From: Ulota crispa
Lineage: Eukaryota > Streptophyta > Bryopsida > Orthotrichales > Orthotrichaceae
Direction of reading: 5' to 3'
NCBI GenBank assembly: GCA_963920765.1
Contig: OY987245.1
Span: 14,772,727-14,836,726 of the forward strand
Length of the DNA: 64,000 nt
The notes under the pieces were generated by a model, which saw only the letters and a list, made by a program, of their open reading frames with translations, was not told the origin of the DNA and did no database searches. How positions within the stretch are numbered: position 1 is the stretch's first letter; each line of letters starts with the position of its first letter. Shown piece by piece: positions 14,247 through 54,590 of the stretch. Position numbers and translations under genes: made by a program.

Positions 14247-15084
14247 AAGTGTTTGCAAGAAACATTTCACAATTTTGTCTCAAAATGCCTCTTTTTGGGT
14301 GTAATACTGGCAGTACTACCAATACTGCAAGTACTACACAACATCCTTCTAGTGGAAATTTGAATTGTCCCTCCCATCCCAAATCTATTGGGAACAAGGC
14401 ACGTGGCATGTCCTTTAGGAAGGCCAATTATCAATAATGGCAATTCAATGAATGGATGAAAAAATATATATATTCTAAAATGATGTCAATGGTCAGTGGT
14501 ACTACGTAGTGCCAATTAATGGAGGGGAGTACTACACAGGCATGTGGAGCAGAAATTACTTGAATTTCTAAGCTACCATGTTTTTATTTATGGTAATTAC
14601 AAAAAAACCAAAAAAATAAAACAAAAATTGGCCATTTGTGGCCTCCTTGATTGGCTTGAAATGATGAAAGTACTTTTTCTAGGAAGGTTTCTATCTATCA
14701 CTTAGGCAAGGAGATAGGATGCCCATTTTGAGAAAACGTGCAAGGCATAGAATTTTGAGATTTGCAAAATTGGTCAACATATTTGTGTAATAATCCTTCT
14801 TGAATCACTACCTTGATTTGTGGCCAAAAATTCGCATTTTTTCACCCAATGCAGTATTGAAAACCCCCAAAACCATTTAGATAGACATGCAATAATTATT
14901 CAATTATAAATAGTAAATATATTTTTTAAATACCAAAAAATTATTGAACGTCAATAACTTTGATATTTTCCTTACCTTGAAATTTCAGGTTAGAAGGACT
15001 TGTTAAGCAAAAGATACGATCCTAATACCACCTAACCGAGGGGAAGAGGACACAATGTAGTACTAGTGTTTCTTGCAATCACCT
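14247..15084. mobile_element. 838-bp non-autonomous derivative of the large 39.6-54.6 kb transposon
   Basis: The left end (GTGTTTGCAAGAAACA, then TTTTGTCTC and a run of GTACTAC-type words) matches 39614-39740. The right 580 bp matches 53990-54586 in the same orientation, including GGGGAAGAGGACACAATG near the end. Left and right ends are inverted repeats of each other (TTGCAAGAAAC / GTTTCTTGCAA). TTTA flanks both sides (14243-14246, 15085-15088), a possible 4-bp duplication. There is no coding capacity; it looks like an internal-deletion copy. Confidence 0.8.
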
Positions 15085-20350: not shown

Positions 20351-20852
20351 AAGTAGCAACACCCATCTCCTTCATGTCCCCATGGGGGTCACTTGACATT
20401 GTGAGGGAGGGACAAATATAAAATCAAATGATTATGGGTGACAAAGTAATGGTTGTAGGTGATGAAGTGATGGTTGTGGGTGAGGAAGTGATGGTTGTGG
20501 GTGAGGAAGTGATGGTTGTGGGTGAGGAAGTGATGGTTATGGGTGATGAAGTGATGGTTATGAGTAACAAAGTGGTGCTTTTGGGTGACTAAATTGATAA
20601 TTTTGAGTGCCCCATCTCACTATTTAAGAACCATCAAGCATTATATTTAGCATCTCTACCACACAACTATACAATTTTAATGATTTTGGACTTTGAAAAA
20701 TCTTTGTGAACAAATGTTTACAATTAGAACTTTGAAATTGATGCCAATATTTTTGGTTTCCTCTTCCTAACTTCACAATATTATTTTCAAAGTTCATCAA
20801 TTGATTTCCTACTCCCAAATCCTTAGTTTGACACTTATGGGTGCTACTACCT
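20351..20852. mobile_element. TA-inserting MITE, AGGTAG family, with internal minisatellite
   Basis: AAGTAGCAACACCCATC and GGGTGCTACTACCT are inverted ends flanked by TA. It is longer than its sisters because the 21-bp unit at 20430-20590 has expanded. Confidence 0.75.
20430..20590. repeat. 21-bp tandem repeat, about seven copies
   Basis: The unit GTGATGGTTGTGGGTGAGGAA is repeated head to tail, perfect in the centre and diverged at the edges. The sister MITE at 19821 has only two or three units. Confidence 0.9.
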
Positions 20853-22181: not shown

Positions 22182-24005
22182 TGCTGTCCGATAACACAAT
22201 CTTGCCCAGAGTAACAACTATGGTCCTTATGGAGACTTGTCCATGTGCAATGGCGTGCTAGGCCCACTTTCCTCCACCAGCAACTAAAGTCAACAATCTC
22301 AGAAAAGTGAGGGCGTACGGAACTACTAAAGACCAGCCCCTGTGATTCAAAATAGAGGTTGTGCCAGTAGGCAAGTGCGTGACCCCAAGAATCCATTGCA
22401 GGATGGCAGCGACCATGATGAGAGCTCTCATCACAGTAGCAAGCCAATGGCCTGCCACAACCTTGGCCCACAACAGGGCTGACAACGCCAGCAACGAGGC
22501 GTCGACGATACCACACACACTAGTAAGAACTCCCCACTTGAATCTCGACGTGGAGTGATTCACTATCCAGAAGTAAACATTAGCAAAATTCGCCATAGTC
22601 GCCACAAAACAAGAAACTCTATTGGCCCAGATGGGTACGCCATTCAAGTAGCTGCTTCCAACCAAGTGGAACCTCGGAGTGACAGCGATGATCGTGATCC
22701 AAACCACAACTGGCAGCGCTTCTAACCCACTCGCTATCATCAGCCTGTGCATTGGCAGCGACAAGTATCCACTCACAGGCTCCAAAGCCACGACGATGAA
22801 GTGATGTTCTAGCGAGATTTGACACGTGGCTTCGCTGCAGAACGACGACAACGGAAGCTTGGTTTGTGTGGAATCGACAATGTATCCACGCATGGCGCGT
22901 CTCGTGAGAAGCGCCGTAGAGAATGCGTCTGTTCGGAAGAAAACTACGAGCGTGCAAGACAAGAGGAACGAGCAGAGGCGCGATAGCCACCACACGGATG
23001 GGTCGAAGTCGGTTTCGTTTTGGGTTGGGGAGGACTCACCAACTAGAGCTTTGCGGTAGCTGACTGTGAAAGGATTCTCGTTTCCACGCTCTTCGGCATC
23101 CTTGATAGTACTAGCTTCAGAGATCGTGGATTGCCACGTCACGCTGTTTTCGTTTGCAGGCTCCACCAGTAGCAGTCCTGTGTGTCCCTCGGCAGCGAAT
23201 AGATTGGCTGAGCTCACGGAGAGCGCTCTCCTGCAATCAGATCGACGGAAATCCGCCCGACCCAGAGCAACTTGAGGATCTGAGCCTGCGTCCTGGTAGA
23301 ATGCATCCCGGGAGTTATGGCACCTTCCACTGAAACAAGCGCTGGATATAAGTGCATTGTACGTGTCATTGACGCGGAAGACTGATCCAGGAGCCACTGT
23401 GGTTAAGTGCTTGCTCACGCCTTCGACTCGCTCGAACTTTAAGCAACTGCATTGTGATGAACATGCACATTTAATTGGCTCGGCCTTGGGATCGCGTAAG
23501 GGCGGGCATAACCCTGAAGCAGGCATCAAGTCCGCCCTCTTACCCGTCGTGGCTCCGTAATAAGAAAACAACTGATGTGCCTAGGGTTTGGAATTTGCTT
23601 CCACCAGTATGAGCACTCGACTGAGCGAGTGTTGGTCGGAGATCGTTAATGTCTTCACGTTTGGTGATGATACCCCGTCTAGTAACGTCAGTAAGTCTCG
23701 TGTGTTCGTTCTCTGCGTCCAACCTCCGCCGCATGATTGTTGTTACGAGCGCCATGACTAGACCTAAAGCTGTGAGACCAGCGTCCAAAAAGTTGGCCGT
23801 GTCCGCGAGTAGAAGGTTGGATTCTTGGGCTTGGACACGCCGTACAAAGCACCCCGATAATATCACGCTCAGTAACCATCTTCGCAATCCTAGTATCCTT
23901 CAGCAACGAGGAATAGTAACAGGTCAGTTAGATCAAGAGCAAAAGGTGCCTTCAAAAGAGGCAAACTCTGTTAAGAACTAGCAATTGAGGTAGACCCTAG
24001 TAACG

Positions 24006-31870: not shown

Positions 31871-33965
31871 GCCGAGCCTTTCCACAGCAGTTTGCTGCAG
31901 ATTCTTGCAACACCTGCTGCGCTGTTGCCTTCGTGTTCTACTTTTGCCCGCACTCCAATGCCCCCAAGACTTGCCTGCAGGATCGGAGAGTTCGCAGATC
32001 GAAATGGTTGCTGTCGACTATGAACTCCTCTCTCAAACGAAAGCCTCGTTCTTCAACTACTTCAGATATCCTCGTGCATCTCCCCCGTACAACTTTCACA
32101 GGTTTGACAAGCGTTTGGTCTCCATAGTTTTTGTATTTGCAACCACTCTTATGGAGGAGTAATCAGCGACTAGCTTTGCTCGAGCTGCAGATGATGCAAT
32201 CTAGGAAGAGTACTAACAGCTCTGACTTAATATCTTTAACTGTTACTAGGGTTCACCTCGATTGCTTGTGCTTAACCAAGGTTTCATCTTTAACTTAAAA
32301 TCTATTCCGATCCCTCGTTGCTGCAGGATACTAGGCTTGCGAGGATGGTTGGTGAGCGTGATAATATCGGGCTGCTTTGTACGACTCGTCCGAGCGCAAG
32401 AATCCAACCTTCTTCTCGCGGACACGGCCAACTTTTTGGACGCGGGTCTCACAGCTTTAGGTCTAGTCACAGCGCTCGTAACAACAATCATGCGGCGGAG
32501 GTTGGACGCCGAGACAAACACACGAGACTTGCTAACATTACTGGCAGGGATATCACAAGAGAGTGTGAAGACTTTGACGATCTACGACCAACACTCGCTC
32601 AGTCAAGTGCTCATTCTCGTGGAAGGAAATTCCAAAGCCTGGGCACAGCAGCTGTTTTCGTATTACTCGGCAACGACGGGTAAGAATGCGGAATTGCTGC
32701 CTGTGTCATGGCTATGCCCTCCCCCAAGCGATCCCAAGGCCGTGCCAATACAGTGTGCATGCTTAGTGCAGTGCAGATGCTTGAAATTCGATCGCGTCGA
32801 AGGCGTGAGCAAGCACTTAACCACAGTAGCTCCTGGATCAGTCTTCCGGGTCGATGACACGTACGATGCACTCATATCCAGCTCTTGTTTCAATAGAAGG
32901 TGCCATAACTCGCAGGATGCATTCTACCAGGATGCTGGCTCAGCCTTACAAGGCGCTCTAGGCCCCGCGGAAAATCGACGACCTCTTTGCAGGAGAGCGC
33001 TCTCCGTGAGCGCAGCCAATCTATTCGCTGCCGCAGGACACACAGGACTATTACTACTGGAGCCTGCAAACGAAGACAGCCCGACATGGGAAACCACGAT
33101 CTCCGAAGCGAGCACTATCAAGGATGCCGAAGAGCGTGGAAACGAGAATCCTTTCACAGTCAGCTACAGGAAAGCCCTAGTTGGTGAGTCCTCCCCAACC
33201 CAAAACGAAACCGAGTTCGACCCATCCGTGTGGTGGCTATCGCGCCTCTGCTCGTTCCTCTTGTCTTGCACTCTCGTAGTTTTCTTCCGAACAGACGCAT
33301 TCTCCGCTGCGCTTCTCACAAGACGCGCCATGCGTGGATACATCGTTGATTCTACTCAAACCAAGCTTCCATTATCGTCGTTCTGTGGTAAAGCCAGCTG
33401 CGAGAAATCGTCAGAAGAACGCTTCATCGTCGTGGCTTTGGAGCCTGCTAGTGGATACTTGTCGCTGCCAATGCACAGGCTGATGGTAGCCAGCGCGTTG
33501 GAAGCACTGCTCGTCATGGTTTGGATCACGATCATCGCTGTCACTCCGAGGTTCCACTTGGTTGGAAGCAGCTACTTGAATGGCGTGCCTATCTGGGCAA
33601 CTGGAGTTTCTTGTTTTGTGGCGATTATGGCGAGCTCTGCTAATGTTTACTTCTGGATAGTGAATCACTCCACGTCGAGATTCAAATGGGGAGTTCTTAC
33701 TAGTGTGTGTGGTGTCGTCGACGCCTCGTTGCTGGCGTTGTCAGCCCTGTTATGGGCCAAGGTTGTGGCAGGCCATTGGCTTGCTACTGTGATGAGAGCT
33801 CTCATCATGGTCGCTGCCATCCTGCAATGGATTCTTGGGGTCACGCACTTGCCTACTGGCACAACCTCTATTTTGAATCACAGGGGCTGGTCTTTAGTAG
33901 TTCCGTACGCCCTCACTTTTCTGAGATTGTTGACTTTAGTTGCGGGTGGAGGAAAGTGGGCCTAA
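31830..33965 (+). CDS. Unrecognised multi-pass membrane protein, copy B (open)
   Basis: I do not recognise this family. Exons 31830-32101 and 32327-33965 (donor CACAG/GTTTGA, acceptor TTGCTGCAG/GATA) join in frame to about 636 residues. The start is uncertain: ATG 31830 is inside a TTAA element, and ATG 32004 would give about 578. Visible parts: a hydrophobic segment at about 96-113 ending VRAQE, like a signal or anchor; a helix at 127-145 (FLDAGLTALGLVTALV); a Cys-rich motif CACLVQCRCLKF near 234; VFRVDDTYDALISSSCF; the conserved WWLSRLCSFLLSC; then helices near 393-413, 477-495, 517-535, 546-568, 576-596 and 612-630. About eight spans suggest a membrane protein with a soluble loop of about 240 residues between helices 2 and 3. 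Its inverted duplicate at 22258-24690 is broken. The stop TAA is formed by the edge of a MITE. Codon use is GC-richer than its surroundings, as expected of coding DNA. Confidence 0.75.
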
Positions 33966-39605: not shown

Positions 39606-39738
39606 AGCTACAAGGGTGATTACAAGAATGACCTCCTGTTTTTGTCTCAAGAGGGCTGTTTTTTTGCTACACTGCTCTCAGTGCTACCAGTACTACTAGT
39701 GCCAAAGACCTTCCTCGTACTACAAATATGAACCGTCA

Positions 39739-39987
39739 TTGCTCTGCCAAATTGACTCTGAAAGCGACACCTGGCATTACATTAGTGGGGCAATGTTTGA
39801 AAAGGTATCCTTAAAGTCCGCGGATGTTATAGAGACTGCCACATTACATTCGGCAATGGGTCTCACATCCATTGCAACCACGGATGACATCCATTTTTGT
39901 AAAGCGTTGTTGTCTCTCTTGAAGGGTTGCCACCTAGGGTTCTCTTCTCCTTCTTCTTCTCAAGTTGTAGCAGATGTTCAAGTTTGA
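39739..39987 (+). other. Unassigned 82-codon open frame near the left end of the large element
   Basis: The frame reads CQIDSESDTWHYISGAMFEK and onwards with no known domain and base usage that could be coding. It lies just inside the left terminus. It may be a remnant exon of the plus-strand gene or chance. Confidence 0.3.
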
Positions 39988-40217
39988 TCGTCCTTGAGCG
40001 GCTTAAAATCTACGCCAGAAACACTCCTGCTCAAAGCTTCATTGGGTTTGAGGATTTAGGATTACATTGGACAACTAACGGCATAGTCAATTTAGGATTT
40101 AGAAAACAACGACACTTTTTTGTACTCGGCGTTGTTCTTTGGTGTACTTGGGCGTGTGTTCACAGTGGGGGTTTTGTTGTATCGGCCATTCCAAACTTTA
40201 AAATTGCTGGTGATTAG

Positions 40218-42983
40218 CTTTGTTGGAGAAGTTGTTCAAAAAATGGCAGATGTAAGTCCGCACTAAACTAGATTTCTCATTTCCATTTTTGTTTTCAAAT
40301 ACAAGTTTTTAAAGTCATTTTCCAATATGATTTTATTGTTTCTGTGCATTCTTGGATTACAGTATTTTTTTCAAGTCTAGGGTTTATGGTTTCTGTCTAA
40401 GAGGTTTTGTCTTTTTTTGAAAAAAACCCTAACAAGGTTCCCGTAGGAGTCCGCACCCAATTCAACTTAGCATTCTGGAGCTATAACTTAAGTTTTAGAG
40501 ACAATGATGTACTGTCTTAGGCCTCATTGGGTTCTTATTGCAGCTCCACTTTGGAGCTAGGCTGAATGTTGCTCTTGATAGTTGACGGTGTGCTTTGCCT
40601 GCCGATTTAATCTTGAGAGCAAATACATGGGGTCATACGGACTCGTCGTCCACCAAATACTGCAATATTCCGCCGCAATTGGCTTTAGGTACCTCCCGCA
40701 TATTCAATTACAATGTTAGTAGGCTATTTATACTGTTGGTAGGCTATTCATATTAGATTGGAGATTAGGGTCTACTTTTTTTTTTTTTTTCATTGCCCAA
40801 ATATTCATAGCAATTAATTGTGAGCACACTATTGTTCCCACCTCCTTGTACTACATTTGTAATGTACAATGATCAACACATGCAATACTTTAATTAATGG
40901 ACACCTTGTCTAGTAAGTAGCGTTTTTTCTTATTTACCTTTCTGAGCCCTCAGTTCTAAAGGCACATCCCTTGCAATTTCAGAAATTACAAGAAAATATT
41001 AATCTTCTAATGCATTAGGTAGTAAGGAGACATCATACCAGCCATGATGAATGCATCTTCATATAACACATTTAAAAAAGTTAACTTTCAGCAATACAAC
41101 CATATATGAAGTTAAATTGACGCTTGAAAGATAAAGCAACCCACATTCCGACATGGTTTTGAAACATTTTGTAGAAGCCCTACACAAACATAGAGGGCCT
41201 ACACATACACATTTCCTTCCTGTCTGCTCTGGTATTTTGAAGGTAAACCTTAAGAATACCTCTAAATACTCAATCCATAATTCCTTTGTAGTACTGTTTC
41301 AAAAAGTATCTACAAAATAGTCTGCATATTTACTTCAATGGTTATTGCTGAGCTGTTTCTCTTTACCTCAAATTGAATAGTGTAATAACATAATAATATG
41401 TCGGCCACCAATGGTTTTAGAATTCATTGTACAACTAACATGAAGATAGAAGGTAGAACAATAAGACATTAACCTAAAAAGCAATTATCCGTAATTGATT
41501 TCAACTGAAGTCGCTCAATACTGTCTTCTGCACTTGAGCTTGAGGTCCACTCATGCACATATTTTGCCAATTTGTCATCCTCTTTTCCCTTCATAATTTC
41601 TTGGACAATCTTCATGGATGATTTCTAGAACAGTGACGCATTCTATCCAAAATTTGAAGAAGCCCCCTTCCCTTGATGTATGACTTGCTATCATTGATTT
41701 TTATTCCGCTGTCATTAATCCTAGTAAAGTATAGATGATGTTTCTCAAATACAATATCCCCACCTACAAGTTATATTTTCAAAATTTCTCTTAGAATCAA
41801 TTGTCCATATGGTCCCATAATGTATTCAACGTTATGGAGAAGTTTCTAAATAGTTCAATACAAATCCATGGCATTTTAGTCGATTTCAAGAAAACTGGGA
41901 GAGTCTTGCCCTCACTACAATCATGTCCCTATTGCAATGTCTTTTTTTCCAAAGACTGTTCTAATGCTAAGCCTACTATATTGGACCACTCCATGTTATT
42001 TTGAATCAAAGTTAGTACTTAGTGGTACTAATAGTTGTTCAATTCATTTGAATTGCAGAGACGTATCCGCTACATGTAAGCTGCCATGTGCATGGTGGCA
42101 CTACAAATACAAATAGTACCCTCGGTAGTCATTCTCATACTAAGGAGTACAATTGCTCCCTTCCTCCATGTCATTGTCCTTCCACTTCTGCCTGGCTTCT
42201 TTAAAATTTATGGACTTGCTCAAGTATTGGAATTTTTTGAAAGTACTAATGCACTAGGTAACTACGCTTCCACAACCTACTGGTTCATTTAGCAACTTGT
42301 TAGTACTACTATGTGAGCAATAGTCTTAATCATTTTTTCAGACATTATTGATGCCTTCTACAGTCATCCTTTCAACCTTGTAGTACTACTAATACTCGGC
42401 TTCCATAATGTAGCTTCTTATGGGTATTCCAAGTGTGCTACCACATTTGTTATGGTTTATACATTTAAGCTGAAGTGAGAGTTTCAGTTTTGTTCGAGGA
42501 GCTACGCATACCGCAGTACTATTCCTAGTAAACCCTCATGAACTTTGCAAACTCATAGTACTAAAGTTGGTACTACTAGCAGTTCAACTTAGCCAGCTCA
42601 ATACTTGGTAATATAGTAGAACGGCCACATTACTGTCTCTAGAAGTACATAGTAGTACTTTACAAAGTGCTGACATAACTGTCTTTTGTACAACGTAGTA
42701 GTTCTCTATCACTTTGTCTAAGATTGAATGAACAGCACTTGTGTTCTCTTCACCGTTTTGTAGTACTTCATATTCAACTTATAGTACTACAGTCATGGTG
42801 TGAGTCTTTTGATTGTATTTGATCTTCTATAGTATCTTCCAAGGTGAATTGTCCAATGTACAAGCGTCACGACTCCACCTCATATGTTTCATTTCTTCAC
42901 TTCATTATGACTCACCTCAAATGTTTGCTTTTCAGTCTGGCCAAGCGGTTTGCCCTTCTTGAGAGACCCGGAAAATACCAACT
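40218..42983. other. Non-coding part of the large element, rich in AGTACTA words
   Basis: No supported exon. From about 42010 to 42860 the palindromic word TAGTACTA and its variants (GTACTAC, AGTACT) recur many times. Such spaced motifs could be transposase-binding sites; that is inference. A T-run lies at 40770-40790. Confidence 0.5.
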
Positions 42984-45900
42984 GTGAAGCGTCATGCTCG
43001 TGGTGGATTACGTGACATAGCTCAGCAAGCCACCTTATTTCTGCCAAATGCGGACGTAGATGTACAGCAATCCGCCTCCAAGGTTGATGTCAATGCGGCT
43101 CTTGCTACCTTCAAAAAGACCTTCCAGTCTAGAGGGAAGAACTCCTCTGAGAGGGGCTCCTCCTTGTTGGAGAAGACTACGGGAACACCTCTGGCATTGA
43201 CGTCAGTTTCTGCTCTTGAACAAAAGGCCACTTCTCTTTCTACGGATGGCATAGTTAGGGTTGACGTGCCCGGACAAGCATCACCCCACGTGACGCCTAC
43301 TAATTCAATATCCAAATTCGACAGGGCGGACGTTGTCAAGGAAGGTACATCACCATCGGAAGGACCTTGTCGTACGCCCATAAAGCACATGGGGCGAAGA
43401 GGAGGGGTGAATCCAATGGGTCAAACCGTCACACAGAAAGAGGAAGACAATGATGGAAACTCTATTATTGACAGACTAATTGGTTTTGAGGTAGTTTACC
43501 AATTCATTTTTCATTGCTTCTTTCTTCATAATGTATGCACATCTATAAGAGTGGAACGTTGTAGTTCAAGTTTCCACGCATTGATATTGCTTCTTGTCAT
43601 GTTGCTAGTATGTTATGTAACTGTTAACTTGCACAGGGAACAAAGCGATAAAAGAAGGTCTATAGCGCCGACCAATGTCAGAAGGCGCTAGAAGACCTGC
43701 AAATGCCGTCGAGGAGGCCTCCTCATCTCTTGACCAAAGTGGAATTCCGGGATGAGTTTCACCTTAGCAGCTCTGGCATCAACCCACATAAGTTAAAACT
43801 AAGTAAACGTGTCTGTATTTTGATATGGAGGCAGTTTTTGGTGCTGACAAGAGTTGCAATGGATATAGCTTAGCCGAGTGACTTGATATTGCTCAGAGAA
43901 AGGAAGTGAAAGCCCTATATTGTCTTTGTTATCAAAAGGAGTCGCCAACTCATCACGTTGCCAAAGAGCTAGCAATGGGGTGGGTGCTGCAATATAAGAA
44001 GGGGGAGAAAATCAATTGGGTTGAGTTCTCAGCAGAAACTAACCACCTTCACCAAAGTAACTACAGAGTTTAGATGAAGTCATGGCTCACACGCCTGCAA
44101 GTAGCAGAGAAGACTGACATGGATATAGTGGCAGAGGTTGATTCCATTGTGAAAGGCAGGACATGTGATAATAGGAAGGCCCCTACTAACAACCCTTTTT
44201 GGCACCCTGGTGATGTCAATGTGGTGCCTCACAATGGCCACGTTAGACTTTGACATATTGGCCTTGAGGTAAAGACGGGCAGTGTATGTGTTATACCTTT
44301 CTTTAATTGCATGTTGATCATGTCCTATTCTATGATTTCTCCTATTCTAGTTATGGTTGATAGTGACTCAAAGCAAACGATTTACCATGTCTAGGAATGC
44401 TGACATGGAGACAATGCTGAACAAAGTGGAGGAGGTGGTGGACTGTCTCGTTGAGGAGTCCAACAACATTGGAAATAGACTTGCCGACGCTGAGAAAGAG
44501 GCCTCCTTTTGCGGTGGGATAGTAGAACAATTGCTGAAACAGCTTGCAAATTTTGGTATGACATTTGACCTACCTGATGTTGAGAACCGTGAAGGCTGGT
44601 CCACCAAAATTGTAAGAGATGGCTCCATGCACAACATGCTCACAACAGCCTTGCCAACCACAAGAATCTGCTGCTGCGGAAAAAGCTCTTGGAAGTGGAA
44701 CAGGTCAAGACCAAATGTCGATTGAAAGCATGTAGTTGATATCTCATAGCACTACAGGTGGAGCAGATGTCATTACAGGCTAGATAACTGGGCTGCGTCA
44801 TGCACCTAGCGCCAATTCTGATGCCAGGACTTGACATTCCCTCAATGCCAAATTTCAAAGACATGCCATACTCACCCAATTGTGTCATTTGCTTGGAGGG
44901 ATTTCCATATTGGCACGCCCTCATCTAGAGCTGCAAACATCTATACTACCCTTGGTGTGCTGCGTCATGGTTTAGGGATACTTTGGATTGTGCGGTGAAG
45001 GACTGTGGTAGAGTTTCATCGATGTGGCTAAAAGCATGCGGGTTTGCAAGCTTCCACAATGAAAAGCGCAGTGCAGCTACTCACGACAGTATAACTCTTG
45101 CCTCCGGAGTTGATAGTGGTAACCTACATTTGACTGGAGGCCATGCCAAGTTTGGTAATGCCTACTTGGCTTCCAAAATATACTAATTGTTTTTGTCAAT
45201 TCTCTTTCCATTGTACATAAGAGTATCAACCTCTGTGTGTAACATGACATTGGTCATTGCCTTGTACATAGTAAGTTTGTGTGAGAGCTTAGACAACATA
45301 GTTCTGAAGTCAACTCCCTTTCCTATTGAATTAGGAATGTTTGGTTATTTGTGAATTTCAATGTGTTTATGTTCTGTCCAACTAGTGCTAACTAATCGTT
45401 AATGAAGCTGCTTTCATCATAATTTATGGTTGCATTAGATATTAGGTTCTGATTTGCGGCTATTATGCACTACCCCAGTTCATGGTATTATTTAGTCCTT
45501 CATGGGGTTCAAAGTAAAGATTCACTATTAATCTTACATGGCGATCTCTTGCAATGCCTTCAATGATGTTTGTTTCAAAAAATGTAACAACGTTGTCGAT
45601 TAGGTACATTTTGAACATAGTTTTGTCTGAATTGTTGAGTTACAGGTTTTGTTGGGGAAGGTGCGGCTGCCACTTCGGCATCCAGAAGTACTTTCTTGAC
45701 TTCCCTTGTCGACACAATTGACACAAGAAGGGGGCTTCCACTCCAGAATGTGTCTCAAAATGTAGGGGCGGACTTTGCCTACGTTTCCCCGTCAGTGACT
45801 CCAACTTTATTCCAGTCACATGCCACTCAGGTGCACCTCGTCAAGTGCACCAGGGTTCCATAAGGACCAACATTAACAACCAAAGAGCCGGTTTGCACTT

Positions 45901-47292
45901 CATCCACATTGGTACAAGGCGTCGGCAAAGGCAGCCAAGACCTTAATGATGAGGCCCACGAGGAGAACATTGATGTGCTCAGGCAAGAAGAGTGGTCCGT
46001 GCTCAATGCTGAACCCATTGAAGACAACATGCAAGTGTGTGTACTCATTACCAAAAGTGGTTATCGCTATGTGGTAAGTCGTCCCTTTGTTAATGGGGTT
46101 TCTGATATGCTGCCGTCTTGCGTGATGTTCGCCATTGAAGGTTTTTGACAAGGCTGCTGTAGCATCACCTCTTGGAGCAACTTCACCAACCACTGTGGAG
46201 TGTCCCGTTCACAAAAATATTCAAGCTCCAACAAAAAATGCTTACATGGAGTTTTTTGAGGAGGAAGAACTTAGAGCCTCCCAAAAGCAAGTTAAAGGTA
46301 TGCATTTCATGAAGAGCAATTTGATTTATACAAATGCTTGGCAATTATTTCAAATTGTATTATTTGCAATTGGCTTTCATAATAGCACGCCTTTATTTGT
46401 AGATACAGTTGTTCATGTGGACATTTTTCAACAAAATTTACGGGAGGAGACAATCAGTCCAAGGGCTAAGGCTTCCTCTGCCTTGCCAACACACAATAGA
46501 TTGAAGAATGTTTTGGAGGAATGTAGGAGCCCCTCTCCCTTGCAACAAGAATTTGCATTGCCCAAACGTACTCGGTTGCTTCAATCGTTGAAGCAATCAC
46601 CCGTCGTTGCACATGCGCCAAAGTTGAAGGGGCATTGGGCGGGTCGTTCAACACAAAACCTGAAGGTAACAAAGAAGTGAGATTGTCCAAGGTTGAGTCT
46701 AGTTGGACATGCAAATGGGCATGCCATGCTAGGGCGGTTCAATGTCATTATCGTCCAGTAAACCTTGTACGTGTACTTACAAGGGTCGCCCTGTGTGTTT
46801 GCTCCTCTTGTGGTGATGATAATGTTTGTCATCCTCCGTCAATGCTATTTATGGCTACTATGAAATGGAAAAGGTTTCCAATTTTGCATTGACTTGATGA
46901 TGCCAAAAAGATATGTACAGAGTTGCTGTGGTTGGAAAACTATTTTTAGTGCGGTCTCCACAAACCGTTCCACTACCACTTCTAGAACTACTGTAAGTGG
47001 TTCAAGAGTGAAATTGTGTTTGACTAATTCATTTTTGTGGTGGTGTTATTGTCTTACAAGTCATGGATGTATGCCGTGTGTTTGATTATGTGTCTTTACT
47101 TTTTTGGTTCTCTTAAAAATGAATTATGGACACAGGAATTTGTTGAGCTTGACTGCTCCCAAGGTATCAAGAGCATCCCAATTCTTTGCTCTTGAGGTGG
47201 TGGCATTGACAAGGCCCCACACTGGGATGTTTCTTCCTACACATACATCTGATGTCCTATTTTGCACTCATCTATACAGTCGGGTGCATTAG
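42984..47292 (+). pseudogene. Decayed plus-strand gene of the large element: coiled coil plus RING-like cluster
   Basis: Coding-like blocks follow in order: 42984-43510 (Ser/Thr/Lys-rich, probably disordered); 43880-44070 (KALYCLCYQKE, HHVAKELAMGWVLQYKKGEK); 44357-44640 (METMLNKVEEVVDCLVEESN, a heptad-like helix with further acidic turns); 44860-45180; 45650-46150 (ENIDVLRQEEWSVLNAEPIE); 46135-46680 (basic, KRTRLLQSLKQ); 47160-47292. In 44881-44999 the frame reads CVICLEGF, then SCKHLYYPWCAASWF and CAVKDCG, with a TAG at 44926-44928. The spacing C-x2-C, C-x-H, C, C-x4-C is RING-like, but one His ligand position is Tyr and the last pair is wider than usual. Introns probably separate some blocks. 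I cannot name the family. Stops and a missing start make a pseudogene likely. Confidence 0.5.
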
Positions 47293-48955
47293 TAGCATCC
47301 CCTTCTGCAAAAATGTTGTGTATTTTGTACAATTAGCTGTACAACACAAAGTAGTGAGTATTCCTATTATGCTTTAAGTGGAGGGTGTGCGTACAAGAGA
47401 GATGGCCGATTGAAGGATTGACTAGTAGATCAAGTAAATGTCTAGTTCCATCTTCTCTCATTTTATTTATTTTCAATTCTTCCTTTCTACATAATGTGTT
47501 TGATGTTAGTCTTGTATCATGTAATAGTGAGTGGGTTACATGTTGGATATGCTTGAGTGTCACTCATTATGTATTGTCTTGTTCCTCAATTTATGAACTA
47601 TAGAGATGGAGGCAAGGATTGGGTGGTCCACTGCTCAGGGGACTTTCTATGCAAATGTTACTGGATGGGTGCTTGTCCTAAGCATGTCTAGTGACTGTAC
47701 ATCAAGGAGTGCTCTACAAGCTGCTGTTGTAGCGTAGATTGTGACAATTGCATGATGCAAAGAGGAATGACATTACCATTTCAAGTTTGAATACTACTTG
47801 AATCCCCGTTTCTTTATTGCCTTCAACTTTTTTTTCTTTGTCATGCACCCGAGCATGGTCATAACACGCTTCTTTCCAGGTTTTTTTTGCGAGCAAGGAG
47901 AAGGGTTGGGGCATTAGGTCCATGCATGCAATCCATAGAGGGTCATTTCTTTTTTAGTATGCCGGAAAAGTTCTGACTAATGCTGAATTAAATAGACGTG
48001 GAGATGGTGGTAAATTCTAATTTTCACTCAATGCACATTGGCAATCTGAGTCCTCTAAGGGTGATGACGAGTTGTTGTGTATCAACACAAAACAAACCAC
48101 TAACCTAGCACACTGGATGAACCACAGGTACGCATATAAATTTATCTTGTAGTGGTACATATCTCACTGTACCCATTCGTTTCACTCATTCCATGCATTG
48201 GGTGTAGGTGTGGAGATGCTAACGTCATGAACATGCCGATGTGGATCCACACTACATAGCCTACCCTATATCATATAAGCACTACAACATGTTCGACAAT
48301 GTTTTCTCTTTGAGGTAGAAATTGTTTGCATAATTAAAGAAGTGGATGTCAATGTTTTTATAAATGCATGCAACATAGGTGGCCTTCTTTGCAAATATAG
48401 ACATTCCGGCAAGTGAAGAGCTAACTTGGGATTACGGTTTTGAGTTTGGAAGTTTTGATTCTTATATTTTTCCTTTTGCTTGCACTTGCAAGAGTCGCTT
48501 CTGTAGGCAAAAGTGAAGGATACTACTTACTGACCGCCATTACTACTTTATATATAGTACTTGCAAAGCGAGTGTTACTAGAGACATTATGTATTCCATT
48601 TAGTATTACTTTGCATTGAAACGCAACTTAAGTAAGAGTCACATTTAACTTTCAATTTGATTTATTAATGCTTTTGTAATTTCTTGAACACCCACAAGTC
48701 CAATGCAATCATGAATATAGAATTGGTCCTACGGTATGACATCGTCATGGTTGGAACTCCCTAGCTCAAAGGTACGTAATTGTATGAGTATTGAATGAAA
48801 TTCTTCACTAGCCTATGTCGGATTACGCAATACTATGTTGTACTACTTAGTGACAGGCAGTCCTAAACATAGTAATGAAACATCATGTAGTGCATGAAAA
48901 TTATGGATAGTTTTACCTTACATGTATTACCTAAGAAGATGTGTGCACTATTTTT
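47293..48955. other. Region between the two convergent genes of the large element
   Basis: No convincing exon. Small unrecognised frames (47385-47603 plus, 47714-47923 minus) and AGTACT words at 48500-48860 are all that is seen. Confidence 0.5.
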
Positions 48956-48958
48956 TAC

Positions 48959-51900
48959 TCAATTGTTATCATTGTATTCCTCTAATGTGCATGTAATGAT
49001 GTCAAAGCTTTTGCTAGGTAATGTGTATATGAGATCTCCGCCCTTCACCTGGTGTAAACATGGTATCATTTGGAATTTGCAAGCTAGAACAATGTCTGCG
49101 TCAATGTGCGCTGGTCTTGAGTCCTTTAGGTACACATAGTTGTGAGAACCCGTTCTTCTCCACTTCTGGTAGTAAATAGCAATGATGACATAGTCACCTC
49201 TTTGGAACTTTCCGCCCCATGGACAGTCAAAGTCTTGTTCGACCAATTGCTTTGCTGATTGGCATTGAAGGATGTAAAATGAAACTCCCTCAGTATTGTC
49301 AGCTTTTGCAAGTATGGCAAAATTGTCTCCTATTTGGACCAAGCCAGCCATGTGGCTCTCCTCTTCTTCATACTCCCAATTGCCTTTGTCATTGTTTTCC
49401 TCGTTTTCTAGAACTGATACTGCATAAGTAACATCTATTGGCTGAATTTTGTAGACCTTCCAATCTGGAACATATGATTACTGGTCGCAATTAATGAAGT
49501 TTTCATCTAAGCAAGGACCGCAAAAGCAAGTCTAAGGGCGCAGAAGGAGTTTTGTTGGATCTTGTGCATCTGGCGCAAACACAAAATGCAATTTGGATGA
49601 TCTCAATATTGGACGGTATGCATGGACATGGCTACGGTCCACGTCGTCAATGCCTATGAGATGAAAATAGTGGTACGACATATTGGCAGATAATGAATAT
49701 TCATTAGTTTTTGGAAGATACATTAGTTAAAACAGAAGCTAATGTAGCAATAATTGAAAATGTGAACATCAATTTACATTTCTCTTCATTAATGTTGATG
49801 ACAAAAATGACTATGATTCCTTATTGAAATTAGATTGCTATACGTAGAGAATTCTATTATTGGTGAAAGTATATTTCATTTTTGAAGTTAATATTTGGTG
49901 AAGGTTACAGGTCGTTTTCAAGAAAATTTTATTCCATTGACTACTAAATTGAGCACTGTGAACAGAATTTACCCATCTTGATACGTGAAGTTTCTTTGGC
50001 GCTGCATATGTCTAAAAATGATGTACTAATCCTGTCTGTAGTTTTTCAAAGTATAGAAGATTTGTCCACTTTGTGAAATCGGTGTTACCTAACAATTACA
50101 TGCATGTCAATAATATCAGTCTTTGCCATTAGAGAATGACTACACCTTGCACATTACAAGAACTTCGATGAATCCTTTAGTTAACTAGAATTAATTAATA
50201 TTTAATAGAATGTATAGTGGGATCATGATATTTTGTTCCAAATAGTGAACAAAGCATGTTTTATTTTACAATAGTTACTGTCTAGTATAGATGTCTCAAA
50301 GTATTTTAGTTATTAGTAATTGTTAGTACATTGATCCATGGATGGGGTTTACCTAAACATAAATTATGAAAAGGAAGGCAAACATCATTTCCAATAGATT
50401 ATTTGTACCACAGGTCTTCTTGTTTACCTCATCTGGCCATATCTGATTGGTACTACACCTCCCATTGTTTTAGTCAAGAAAGAGACACAATCTTTTGCAT
50501 CCTACAATTGTCTGTTGGAATTCCTGAGCTGCTCCTGCCGTAGGGCTCTCTTTACCATAGCACCCGTGCCATCTCACTCTCCCTTGTTGTGATCAGAATC
50601 GTAGAAGTTCCAAATCATCCTACATCCTCCTGTCAAAGATAGGTACCTGATGTTTGGGACATGCGCGGAGGCAATTGCCAATTAGTAATAAGAGATGTCA
50701 GAGGATGTTTATACATAAGCTGAAGAGGAAATGTTGGTTCAATGAGGTGGCAGTACCTAGCAACAAAGTAGAGGGACCTTGCACCTTTGAATTGAGCTGT
50801 GCATCCGTCACTGAAAACAATGTGCAAGTCTAGGCGGCATTTGTGGTCTAGTAGCCACCTCCAATGCTTGAGTAAGCAGTGTTGAACGAATAGGGTGTCA
50901 TACGCTTTGTCGTCTGAAATCCAGTAGTGCGTCTCTCGGATTAGCATTGAATCTGTGTCATTCTAATGTTCCACGACTTCCACTTCGTAAAATACTTGCA
51001 CCATTATTGTCACCTGTGTTGAGCAGTAATACATGGACTGGATCTTGTTTCGAATTTGGAAAGAGTAATTTTCAACAAAATCAATGTGCATTAGTATTGA
51101 ACCTTGGGGCAAGGAGTATTTTACCAGCTTAGTTTGATCAGATTGCCAACGAGCGCAAAAGTTGTGGATTACAAAGGCTTGGAAATGTGGCCTGAGGAAA
51201 TCCATGAACGCCGAGAAAGTGGTGAGTTGAGTAACCTCTGTGATTCTCTTCTATGGCTTGCTTGAATCAAGTGCTTCGTCAGTTTGGTACTCAATTTTTT
51301 TCCAGCTTATTTGGCGATGAGGTCTGTCCACTCTTTCAAGTGGGCATAGCCAAAATGTTTGCACCTCGCATTAGTTGCAGGATCCAATCAAGCACTTGTA
51401 ATGCCCATACACATTAATAGGTACAGAAGGAAGTCTTTGGCTATACTAGAGAGAATGACAAAGAATCAATGCGTCTAGAAGGGATAGAACCTCATATTGT
51501 GGAATTCCGCTTCATGTTCTTTAGCGCAGAATACGGACATCCACATCTCTGAAACCCCTACAAATCAACTGGCACCAACATGACATCTTCCATCAGCACT
51601 TGACCCGCAAATGGCGTATTGACATCTGCAGTGGAACAAAACGTGTGCCCCATGTTGAGGGTCACAGAAAACATTAAGGGCTTGAAGAAGAAATAGAGCT
51701 TGAATGTGATGGCGACAGCAACAAACATTGTGTTTTTTACAAAGGATGACGAAAAATGGCCGCAGCTTAATGAAAGACCGCATTTAGATTTGAAAATGAG
51801 GATGAACATCACAAAATTGCTGGAATAAATGTACCTGCAGAACACGCACTATCTTCAGTGAGGTTGTATTTGACTGTACAGCTTGGTTGATGTGCAATAG

Positions 51901-53540
51901 TCAAGAGTCCTACCTGAACATAACAAATAAAGAGTACTTCCTAATGTACATGTAGCATAAGTCTTAACTACATAACTGAATAAATAGTACTTTTTAGTAC
52001 TACATACTAGACATGTAGGACAGTTATTATGCAGTAGTGCAACTAAATATTTACATTGACGCAATAGTGATACTGTATAGTACTGACATTTGTAATGTGA
52101 CGGAGGGAAACAATGAGGGATCATGCCAAAGTGCCAAAAGCATGCGTCATAGTACAATGAACAGACACATGTATGTCATCAATATGACACATACGCGTGT
52201 GGAATGCACCTTGCTTCCATTACTAAGTAATGCAAACCGCACCGGTAGAAAGGTACAGACATGGGTTTCAAGTCGTAGCACTAGGCAGGAAAGACTGTAG
52301 GCTTACTAGGTAGGAGGAATTGATACATTCTTGCAAGAGAGTCATCAATGTGGAACACAGTACTACTGTGTACGTATAGAAGCATATGACAGTGGGAGTC
52401 AATACTAGTGATATGACTTTGACTCTTGAGTATAAGACACCTGCGTAGTTTGGGTATTGAATATGAAAAATAGTGAGCATAACTATTGTGGCACAAACCC
52501 TGCACCTAAACACTAAACGTAGTACAGTGTATTGTAGTGATACTAATAGTATGAACTAAGCTGCTTCTACAATGCTGTCCGTGGAGTTCACAAGTCCGTT
52601 CACGCTAGTAACATCAAATGCCTATGTGAACGACCTCTGGAAGACTGGAAGTCTTTACAGGTAGACTATGAAGTCCTACCAGAATAAAAAAAACTGTAAT
52701 GCGTGGTAAACAATGGTGGAGGGAAATGGAGATGAGCCGGTCACGGCGTAGCTTCAATGATTTTAACACAACCCCAAGAAGTAGTTGCCATAGGTGACAG
52801 CATTAAGAAATGTAGTAGGTCCAAAAACCGCTTTGATAGACAAAATTTGAAACTCAATCCTAATTTATAGGTAGAAGTGAAACACCTCAAAAAGATCTAG
52901 TTTGCCGTATATACTAACCATAAGCATAGCAATAAACATTTACTACAGCAAAAATATGACATTTTGAGAATCAACAAAAATGACTGAGAGTTGGAAATAC
53001 CTGGCTCTCCATGAGCAAATGTGCAGCATGTCATTCATATTGGCTTTGTCCAAGTCGCTTCTTTTGAACTTGCTTCCTATTAGGACTCACCCTAGTTTTG
53101 TCTATCCACCACGCAATGACAGCGGCCCATACTTCTTCGGCAACCCCTCCATTGCGCTTCTTCCTACAAGGTAATTTAAAACAAAATGCTAGTTCTGGTT
53201 CAGCATTGTGTACCCTACGGGTTGCGGAGTCCACATTGTGTTTGTGAGTGCCTATAAGCTTGTGAAATTTGTTTGAGTCGCAGTCCTAGTCCAACACAGC
53301 TACTTCTAGAATAGAGTGCTTCCGAGCAAACATCCCATAAGAGCAGGGGATCTTCATTGCCTGCAAATCTAGTCAAATGTTCTGCAGTATATTGTGTTGA
53401 GCTCGTGCATCCTCTGAAGTGGAGTAGTAGTTTGGAATGAGCATTCTCACTATTTGGTTTTTAAAAACTGTGTCCATGACGGCGGCCCTAAAGTCCTCAT
53501 CTAGTAACTGCTCCAAGTGGTAGATGAGGTCTCTGGACAT
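48959..53540 (-). pseudogene. Decayed DDE-type transposase-like gene of the large element
   Basis: Four coding-like blocks on the minus strand. (1) 53540-53031: MSRDLIYHLEQLLDEDFRAA, later GGVAEEVWAAVIAWWIDKTR and VSPNRKQV, with in-frame stops at 53373 and 53286. (2) 51240-50633: FLRPHFQAFVIHNFCARW, then SILMHIDFVENYSF, WISDDKAYDT and HIVFSDGCTAQFKGARSLYF, with a TAG at 50963. (3) 49720-49480: DDVDRSHVHAYRPILRSSKL, then the Cys motif TCFCGPCLDENFINCDQ with stops on both sides of it. (4) 49460-48959: acidic linker, then LVQIGDNFAILA, FDCPWGGKFQRGDYVI and HNYVYLKDSRPAHI. HIDFxEN and SDGCxAQFK fit two acidic sites of a DDE/RNase H-fold transposase as seen in uncharacterised animal and plant transposon proteins; that assignment is inference. 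Introns probably lie between blocks. It cannot make protein as read. Confidence 0.6.
51850..53030. other. Gap between transposase-like blocks
   Basis: Probably intron or decayed sequence. AGTACT-type words recur at 51930-52550. Nothing else is recognised. The 51558-51845 minus frame (CSTADVNTPFAG...) may be a further decayed exon. Confidence 0.4.
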
Positions 53541-54590
53541 TTCCGCCGCATGTCAATGCAAAGTGCTACAAAATGGACCTATTTCACCCTCCTCCATCGC
53601 CTTATGCCTTCTCTCACGCAATCGATGATGGTACCTGCGCTTCTTCTCCCTCCATCCCCTTCTCTGTGCATCAGCAAATTGCCGTTCTACATCTTGCCGT
53701 GTCTATGGCCCTTGGCGCCTCTTCCTTGTTGGTGGCATACCTTCGTTGCGGCAAACATGGCATGCAGTTCTACTCTCTCCACCTACACAAATCTAGTGGA
53801 AGCGCAAAGAAAATGCATCTGAACTGGTGACCCCCCCCCCAAAAAAAAGGAAAGAATGGCAAAGGGTCCAATTAGGTGACGCCCCTAGACTTTACTGCCG
53901 CTGAAGGAAAACTACTGCGGAAGCCTAACTATAAATAACTGTAAATCAACAAATGGATGAGAAATAGCACCGTCAATTCATAAGATTTCATCCAACACTG
54001 GTACTACCTAGTATCCCATAACAGTAGCGGAGTACCGTCAAGGCCTTTGGTCTGGAAATTACATGAATTTGTAGGCTTCCAATGTTTTAATTTTTGTAAA
54101 TACAAAAAGAATCAAAAAATTGAAATAAAAATTAATCATTTTAGATCTCTATGAATACATTTGCCTAATGCAAGTGAGATATTGAGGAAAATTTTGGTCT
54201 TTTCCCAACCAAGGGAGGGGAGCCCACTTTGAGGCTATGTAGAGGCCATGAAATTAATCATTTATTGAAATGCTATTACAAATGCATGTAATCATGGCTA
54301 ATGAACTACTTCCTTGAGTTGTGGATCCAAATTTGATTTTTTGGTCCCAAAATAGTATTGCAAACCACCAAAAGTACAAAGGTAGACACTTGATTGGAAA
54401 ATCCCCAAAAATAGCAGAAAAACTTTTTAAAAAATTAAAAATTTAGACAACAACGCTAACTTCCCCGTTCACCTTATTCTAAAATTTCAAATGAGAATTA
54501 GTTTGTATGCAAAAGTTATGAAGCAAAACATGATTGCAATAGAGGAGGGGGACACAATGCAGGACAGGTCATTCTTGCAACTACCCACAA

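Follow-up and report, generated by a model that had tools for sequence, protein, structure and literature searches.

SET genes in Harbinger and MuDR elements of Phytophthora were reportedly recognized by Kojima and Jurka in 2014. HarbingerS and the SET-bearing MuDR elements of Phytophthora are described as transposons of other superfamilies that carry a SET histone-methyltransferase gene (PMC12730594), and Sola1-1_Ec32 of the brown alga Ectocarpus is described as a giant DNA transposon of 21.5 kb in which a chromatin- or DNA-modifying accessory, ParB plus a DNA methyltransferase, lies on the strand opposite the transposase (PMC12477816). SETMAR, by its description, likewise joins SET and transposon functions. 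Here we analyzed a window of 64,000 nucleotides from the moss Ulota crispa (GCA_963920765.1, contig OY987245.1; C4:14772727-14836726 in our numbering), with all searches for copies made within this one 274.8-Mb genome. Positions 39614-54586 of the window (14,973 bp) hold a giant DNA transposon that has short terminal inverted repeats, 4-bp target duplications and two convergent genes, one transposase-like on the minus strand and one RING-like plus SET on the plus strand. The accessory thus lies opposite the transposase as in Sola1-1_Ec32, but it consists of RING-like plus Pre-SET/SET/Post-SET parts of the SUVR type. Like the Phytophthora elements, the Ulota element is a DNA transposon with an acquired SET gene; it differs in its 4-bp duplication (3 bp in Harbinger, 7-12 bp in plant MULEs), in its plant host and in the joining of SET to a RING-like exon. 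SETMAR is described as a single domesticated fusion in a primate host gene, whereas the Ulota SET is an accessory carried by a mobile element. Among the matches listed from the open-licence PMC literature, neither a SET gene nor a RING-SET gene was reported for any Sola-type element or any DNA transposon of plants. The suggestion of the first-pass annotation that the element may be undescribed is only partly right: SET genes in transposons and an epigenetic accessory in a giant Sola1 have both been published, and it is the combination of RING-like and SUVR-type SET parts in a giant Sola-like element of a plant that was absent from the matches listed.

The ends and the target duplication identify the block as one DNA transposon. 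Its terminal inverted repeats are 21 nt long and 86% complementary, the left one (GGGTGATTACAAGAATGACCT) at 39614-39634 on the plus strand and the right one at 54566-54586 on the minus strand, so that the element reads GGGT...ACCC. ACAA stands directly beyond each end (39610-39613 and 54587-54590), giving a 4-bp target duplication; inverted outer ends flanked by ACAA had also been noticed at first pass. The end motif GGGTDDTTDCAAGAATGACCT had 309 exact matches in the genome, compared with 0 for the reversed control. Between the ends, the two genes converge, the accessory at about 42963-48513 on the plus strand and the transposase gene at about 53760-48962 on the minus strand, and in-frame stops occur in each, in agreement with the two convergent decayed genes first annotated. 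The window copy is dead, a fossil of its transposon family.

A second full-length copy was found at C3:19704004-19721539 (17,536 bp), bounded by an exact TTAG/TTAG duplication. From its right end at C3:19704004 (locus L041), the window copy predicted a left end at 19721527, and this was found at 19721539, 12 bases off and with one mismatch. Matches to the transposase (19707990), the SET part (19712631) and the RING-like exon (19715991) lie inside. Both ends and the duplication were demonstrated in these two large copies only; at a locus on C7, a right end lies 3.8 kb from a transposase match, compared with 3.6 kb in the window copy. Merged searches gave 72 transposase and 58 SET loci, the window's own included, and these counts are lower bounds. 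A transposase locus was present within 10 kb of 52 of the 58 SET loci, with convergent orientation in all 52, whereas across 500 random placements the mean was 0.5 and the maximum 3. Six SET loci, a host SUVR gene among them, and 20 of the 72 transposase loci were unpaired at this distance.

These copies support the earlier inference that the 15-kb block is one mobile unit and its second gene an accessory. The ends, which were to be sought about 15 kb apart elsewhere, recur 17.5 kb apart on C3 with both genes and an exact duplication, and the contrary case named in the first-pass annotation, ends never so spaced or genes apart without them, therefore fails, the genes standing together and convergent at 52 of the 58 SET loci. 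A rival view, in which the co-location is fortuitous or stems from ancient segmental duplication of a host gene pair and the ends are coincidental, could draw on the ends being unseen at most pairs and on two copies, each with RING-SET and transposase, that lie on the small contig C11 (L079, C11:5576273; L080, C11:6138067). These are 99.7% identical across the 3,138 bp compared, and their near-identity may reflect very recent transposition or segmental duplication. Against linkage and convergence at 52 of 58 loci where random placement gave at most 3, the exact target duplications on two full-length copies and the 309 end motifs to none in the control, the probability of this explanation is close to nil, and the motif count, the second copy and the pairing rule out chance association.

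In the window copy, the accessory gene comprises, in order, a coiled-coil-like region, a RING-like exon and a SET domain. Its decayed 5′ exons and the coiled-coil-like region (42963-44722, plus strand, as are all parts of this gene) were read from open stretches and are 65% identical in DNA to the other full-length copy. The RING-like exon at 44785-45150 contains two in-frame stops and, although below Pfam cut-offs, has 66% protein identity to L089:392-772. Reading against the translations of L060-L063 indicated a putative, degraded Pre-SET remnant at 47128-47440. By sequence comparison, the first part of SET (47931-48173) keeps NHR and has three in-frame stops, the last of them past the inferred intron boundary after NHR. 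The end of SET (WDYG) and the Post-SET cysteines close the gene at 48379-48513; this short exon scored below the Pfam cut-off for SET (E 0.0086) and had 48 further matches in the genome. The earlier description of the second gene as RING/coiled-coil is thus right for the RING-like and coiled-coil-like parts but incomplete, as the gene continues into Pre-SET, SET and Post-SET. As read from sequence, the product would be a RING-like plus SET, histone-methyltransferase-like protein.

Other copies gave a clearer domain assignment. Among eight pieces from other copies, Pfam cut-offs were passed by Pre-SET in L084 and L075 and by SET in L084, L087, L076 and L061, and the solved chains nearest to L084 were those of EHMT1/EHMT2 (best E 6.6e-12). 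RING stayed under the Pfam cut-off in all pieces scanned (best E 2.6e-4), and the term RING-like is used for this reason. Of 66 merged RING-like loci, 59 lay upstream of a SET tail on the same strand within 25 kb, at 43 of the 58 SET loci and with the nearest exon 2.9-6.9 kb away; none of the 66 was in the opposite orientation to SET within that distance. An additional RING-like exon was found 12.0-16.3 kb upstream at 15 SET loci (L090, C2:6517900-6519099, and 14 similar ones), and in L090 it sits inside an open frame with a coiled-coil-like stretch. Where such double-RING elements have a transposase match, they span about 18-25 kb from this match to the outer RING match, a distance to which nested insertions may contribute. 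The further exon thus implies elements of at least 18-25 kb, which may carry at least three gene modules.

Plant SUVR proteins with a WIYLD domain (the V-6 group, PMC3063831; SUVR4, PMC7218100) are described with Pre-SET/SET/Post-SET parts of the same type as those of the transposon. WIYLD marks one plant SUVR group (V-6, PMC3063831), and Arabidopsis SUVR4 is reported to convert monomethylated histone H3 lysine 9 (H3K9me1) to higher states and to bind ubiquitin via WIYLD (PMC7218100). WIYLD had a single match in the Ulota genome, at C1:30107207-30107290 on the minus strand, and none in 14 control genomes. On that strand, 3.8 kb further downstream (C1:30102618-30103399), there is a SET match without linked transposase, and the two together are taken as the putative host SUVR gene. 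The whole-genome search gave no WIYLD match at transposon loci, although a strongly diverged WIYLD could escape it; transposon copies instead have the RING-like exon and coiled coil. The transposon SET is accordingly called SUVR-like, and its gene, having no WIYLD match, is not filed as a SUVR gene. Its sequence places it with the plant SUVR and G9a-type H3K9 methyltransferases. An intron after NHR, deduced from interrupted translation, occurs both in the host SUVR (L091) and in those copies of each of the three transposon lineages that were seen. By the same reasoning, the host shares an intron after YHV with lineage A only, and none of the transposon copies seen has the intron that splits WDYG between W and D in the host. 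Because of the common intron position, SET was probably taken from a cellular gene as DNA and not as a retrocopy. In a tree of 12 transposon SET copies, lineages A, B and C were supported at 100, 87 and 99.

The SET residues bear on whether the accessory could act as an enzyme. The catalytic tyrosine was present in 29 of 30 copies, N of DAN in all 28 in which it was found, NH in 22 of 26 with the motif found and the Post-SET cysteine pattern in 23 of 30. The accessory might instead oppose host silencing by competition, as a dominant-negative or decoy SUVR that does not methylate. The loss of H of NHR in some copies (L084, L085 and L070) would suit such a role, as would one in vitro assay in which Arabidopsis SUVR1 and SUVR2 are reported to have been inactive as methyltransferases (PMC7218100); the near-constant tyrosine and asparagine speak against it, and we regard the decoy as rather doubtful.

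Selection and co-inheritance of the two genes were also considered. The proportion of nonsynonymous differences (pN) was below that of synonymous differences (pS) in 405 of 406 SET-tail pairs (29 copies, with L080 dropped as a near-duplicate of L079) and in 434 of 435 transposase pairs (30 loci). The similarities of the two genes correlated at the DNA level across 19 lineage-A pairs (Spearman Mantel 0.53, p 0.0002; the distant L035/L083 pair was left out of 20), and by score to the window queries across 45 convergent pairs besides the window's own (0.59, p 2e-5). Several observations weigh against a giant transposon with a selected accessory. Loci were picked by protein similarity, which introduces selection bias into pN/pS, and for each gene, pN exceeds pS in the pair with the lowest pS, as decay after insertion would produce. 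The nearest neighbour is identical for both genes in only 8 of the 19 lineage-A pairs, and a Mantel test at the protein level, run on short stretches, gave no significant correlation. Monophyly of the transposon SETs relative to the host gene was supported at only 57, so that one capture and several cannot be told apart. The left 301 bases of the window copy had 22 matches in the genome, its own included, and none placed a left end beside any further gene pair; the 100 end motifs listed of the 309 (C1, C2 and the start of C3) all lay more than 20 kb from the nine pairs of SET and transposase loci on C1 and C2. The majority of copies are either old or from lineages for which the ends fell outside the DNA retrieved.

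The RING-SET gene could be thought a passive passenger, a captured host gene without a role that is kept by its position between functional ends. Stops occur in both genes of the window copy and of many others, 20 of the 72 transposase loci have no SET match within 10 kb, and capture of gene pieces is described as frequent in plant transposons, as in Pack-MULEs (PMC12477816). We nevertheless consider a passenger improbable in view of the convergent layout kept over three lineages (SET pieces about 27-52% identical in the L084 comparison), the mostly kept catalytic residues, the correlated similarity of the two genes and the low pN in nearly all deep pairs, the last subject to the bias mentioned above.

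The ends are also shared by short non-autonomous relatives. One of 838 bp, flanked by TTTA/TTTA, lies in the same window at 14247-15084 and has related left and right ends, as already noticed at first pass. The right-end search of the genome gave 802 candidates, of which 40 were scored. The 20 right-end loci examined comprised the window's own, two (L040 and L041) without a left end within the retrieved DNA, and 17 short elements of 721-837 bp (L042-L058), in which the 4-bp duplication was exact in 10, matched at three of four bases in 4 and at two or fewer in 3. From the left side, a right end was located 836-854 bp away at six of seven loci besides the window's own (L002-L008), with exact duplications in four of the six; these elements, in L003-L008, resemble the 838-bp one. 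Given 802 right-end candidates and 309 end motifs, short relatives with shared ends probably number hundreds in the genome. As a separate observation, L040 (C9:6102899-6103499) has the right end closest to the window copy among the matches scored (80% over 600 bp) and ACAA as its outer flank; no transposase or SET match was near it among those listed, and it is possibly an internally deleted derivative.

The transposase gene of the window copy lies entirely on the minus strand. Its probable 5′ exons (53034-53760) come from open stretches and reading only. The N-terminal exon at 51487-51849 was joined with the core at 50729-51418 in a tblastn match with L020 (E 4e-85), and the core, recognized also by genome matches and motif comparison, holds the first and second aspartate motifs (HIDF and FSDG). 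A third catalytic exon at 50469-50648, HNKGE*DG, was assigned by sequence comparison and includes an in-frame stop; the C-terminal region at 48977-49609 was matched by tblastn with L027 (E 1e-39). Across 30 loci examined, the first D was present in 21 of 24 with the motif found and the second in 21 of 30 (8 N, 1 E), and the third acidic residue is ambiguous between E282 and D284. Predicted models were weak, with RNase H-like strand order. In the comparison of a model with HIV-1 integrase, the ends of the aligned range put the two conserved aspartates at residues 64 and 116, which we take to be the catalytic positions of that enzyme. Mitoribosomal chains and a designed protein headed the fold matches listed, the recognizable ones being Argonaute/PIWI, retroviral integrase, terminase and reverse transcriptase chains; no chain described as a eukaryotic DNA transposase was among them, an absence that excludes nothing. 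In a viral fold library, entries named ribonuclease H and RuvC were matched, with E above 0.001. On these models, we infer a core of the RNase H-like DDD/E kind. Beside one transposase copy, a 346-amino-acid open frame (L031:2162-3199) had a weak gag-type CCHC zinc-finger match below the Pfam cut-off and is possibly part of a nested long terminal repeat element.

Sola elements are described as having 4-bp duplications, terminal inverted repeats of 11-1124 bp and sizes of mostly 2-9 kb with some over 15 kb, and as occurring in a moss (PMC10741241). The Ulota elements agree in duplication (ACAA, TTAG and TTTA, besides the exact cases among the short relatives, 10 of 17 and 4 of 6), in their 21-bp ends and in size (14,973 and 17,536 bp). 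Sola1 is further characterized by a DDD-type transposase, to which the motif counts given above may correspond. Other superfamilies were rejected. Ginger1/Ginger2 are given TGTNR termini and CCGG/CCGT or 6-bp RTATAY targets (PMC2836005), in contrast to GGGT termini and varied 4-bp duplications; MULE/Mutator duplicates 7-12 bp (PMC10741241), and PIF/Harbinger, with HarbingerS, duplicates 3 bp of the form TNA/ANT (PMC12477816). A new superfamily outside Sola could be argued from the ambiguous third acidic residue, from Pfam, which gave only weak unrelated names below cut-off in the transposase pieces scanned, and from IMG/VR, where one query found no relative in viral contigs. The silence of Pfam is uninformative because the presence of a Sola model in it is uncertain, and the short ends, 4-bp duplication, size above 15 kb and record of Sola in a moss fit the published description (PMC10741241), a giant Sola1 with an opposite-strand accessory being known as well (PMC12477816); a new superfamily thus appears unlikely. 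The transposase, first annotated as of unidentified superfamily, is most likely Sola1-type, a match to published descriptions that narrows the earlier assignment and falls short of proof.

Taken as a whole, a giant Sola1-type transposon whose SUVR-like RING-SET accessory acts on chromatin is probably the right explanation. The transposase, as deduced from the ends seen, would cut and join at GGGT...ACCC and so give 4-bp duplications, and it would, judging by their shared ends, mobilize the short non-autonomous relatives too. The RING-SET protein would act on chromatin, with RING as a ubiquitin-ligase or targeting module and SET as a lysine methyltransferase. H3K9 methylation is a main silencing mark against plant transposons. 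The likeliest benefit to the element would be to set its own chromatin state or to compete with host SUVR silencing, so that the transposase could act without full silencing. More speculatively, RING beside a SUVR-type SET could stand in for the ubiquitin link that WIYLD provides.

Elsewhere in the window, 22259-23922 and 32302-33964 form an inverted near-duplicate (89-90% over about 1.66 kb) with open frames of 440 and 571 amino acids, neither of which had a Pfam match at E 0.01. In the interval from 19.5 to 32.2 kb, several other sequences are likewise paired in inverted orientation, which points to a palindromic arrangement on a larger scale. A tandem array at 20415-20601 has a 21-bp unit around GGGTGAGGAAGTGATGGTTGT.

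The resemblance of the accessory to a host chromatin-silencing enzyme means that, on the comparisons above, the parasite may carry a version of the plants' own tool for switching transposons off. In its fullest form, the proposal is that a land-plant transposon lineage acquired a SUVR-type H3K9 methyltransferase and fused it with a RING module, that selection has maintained the enzyme over three diverged lineages, some of whose elements grew to at least 18-25 kb and have a second RING gene, and that the element writes or interferes with the host silencing mark; this we hold possible, though somewhat short of probable. If true, such a plant transposon family, equipped with a SUVR-like enzyme, would offer a natural test of how silencing is evaded or exploited. 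It would also suggest that giant Sola-type elements repeatedly take chromatin- or DNA-modifying accessories, a DNA methyltransferase in Ectocarpus and SET here, and transposon copies may inflate the numbers of SUVR genes counted in related plants.
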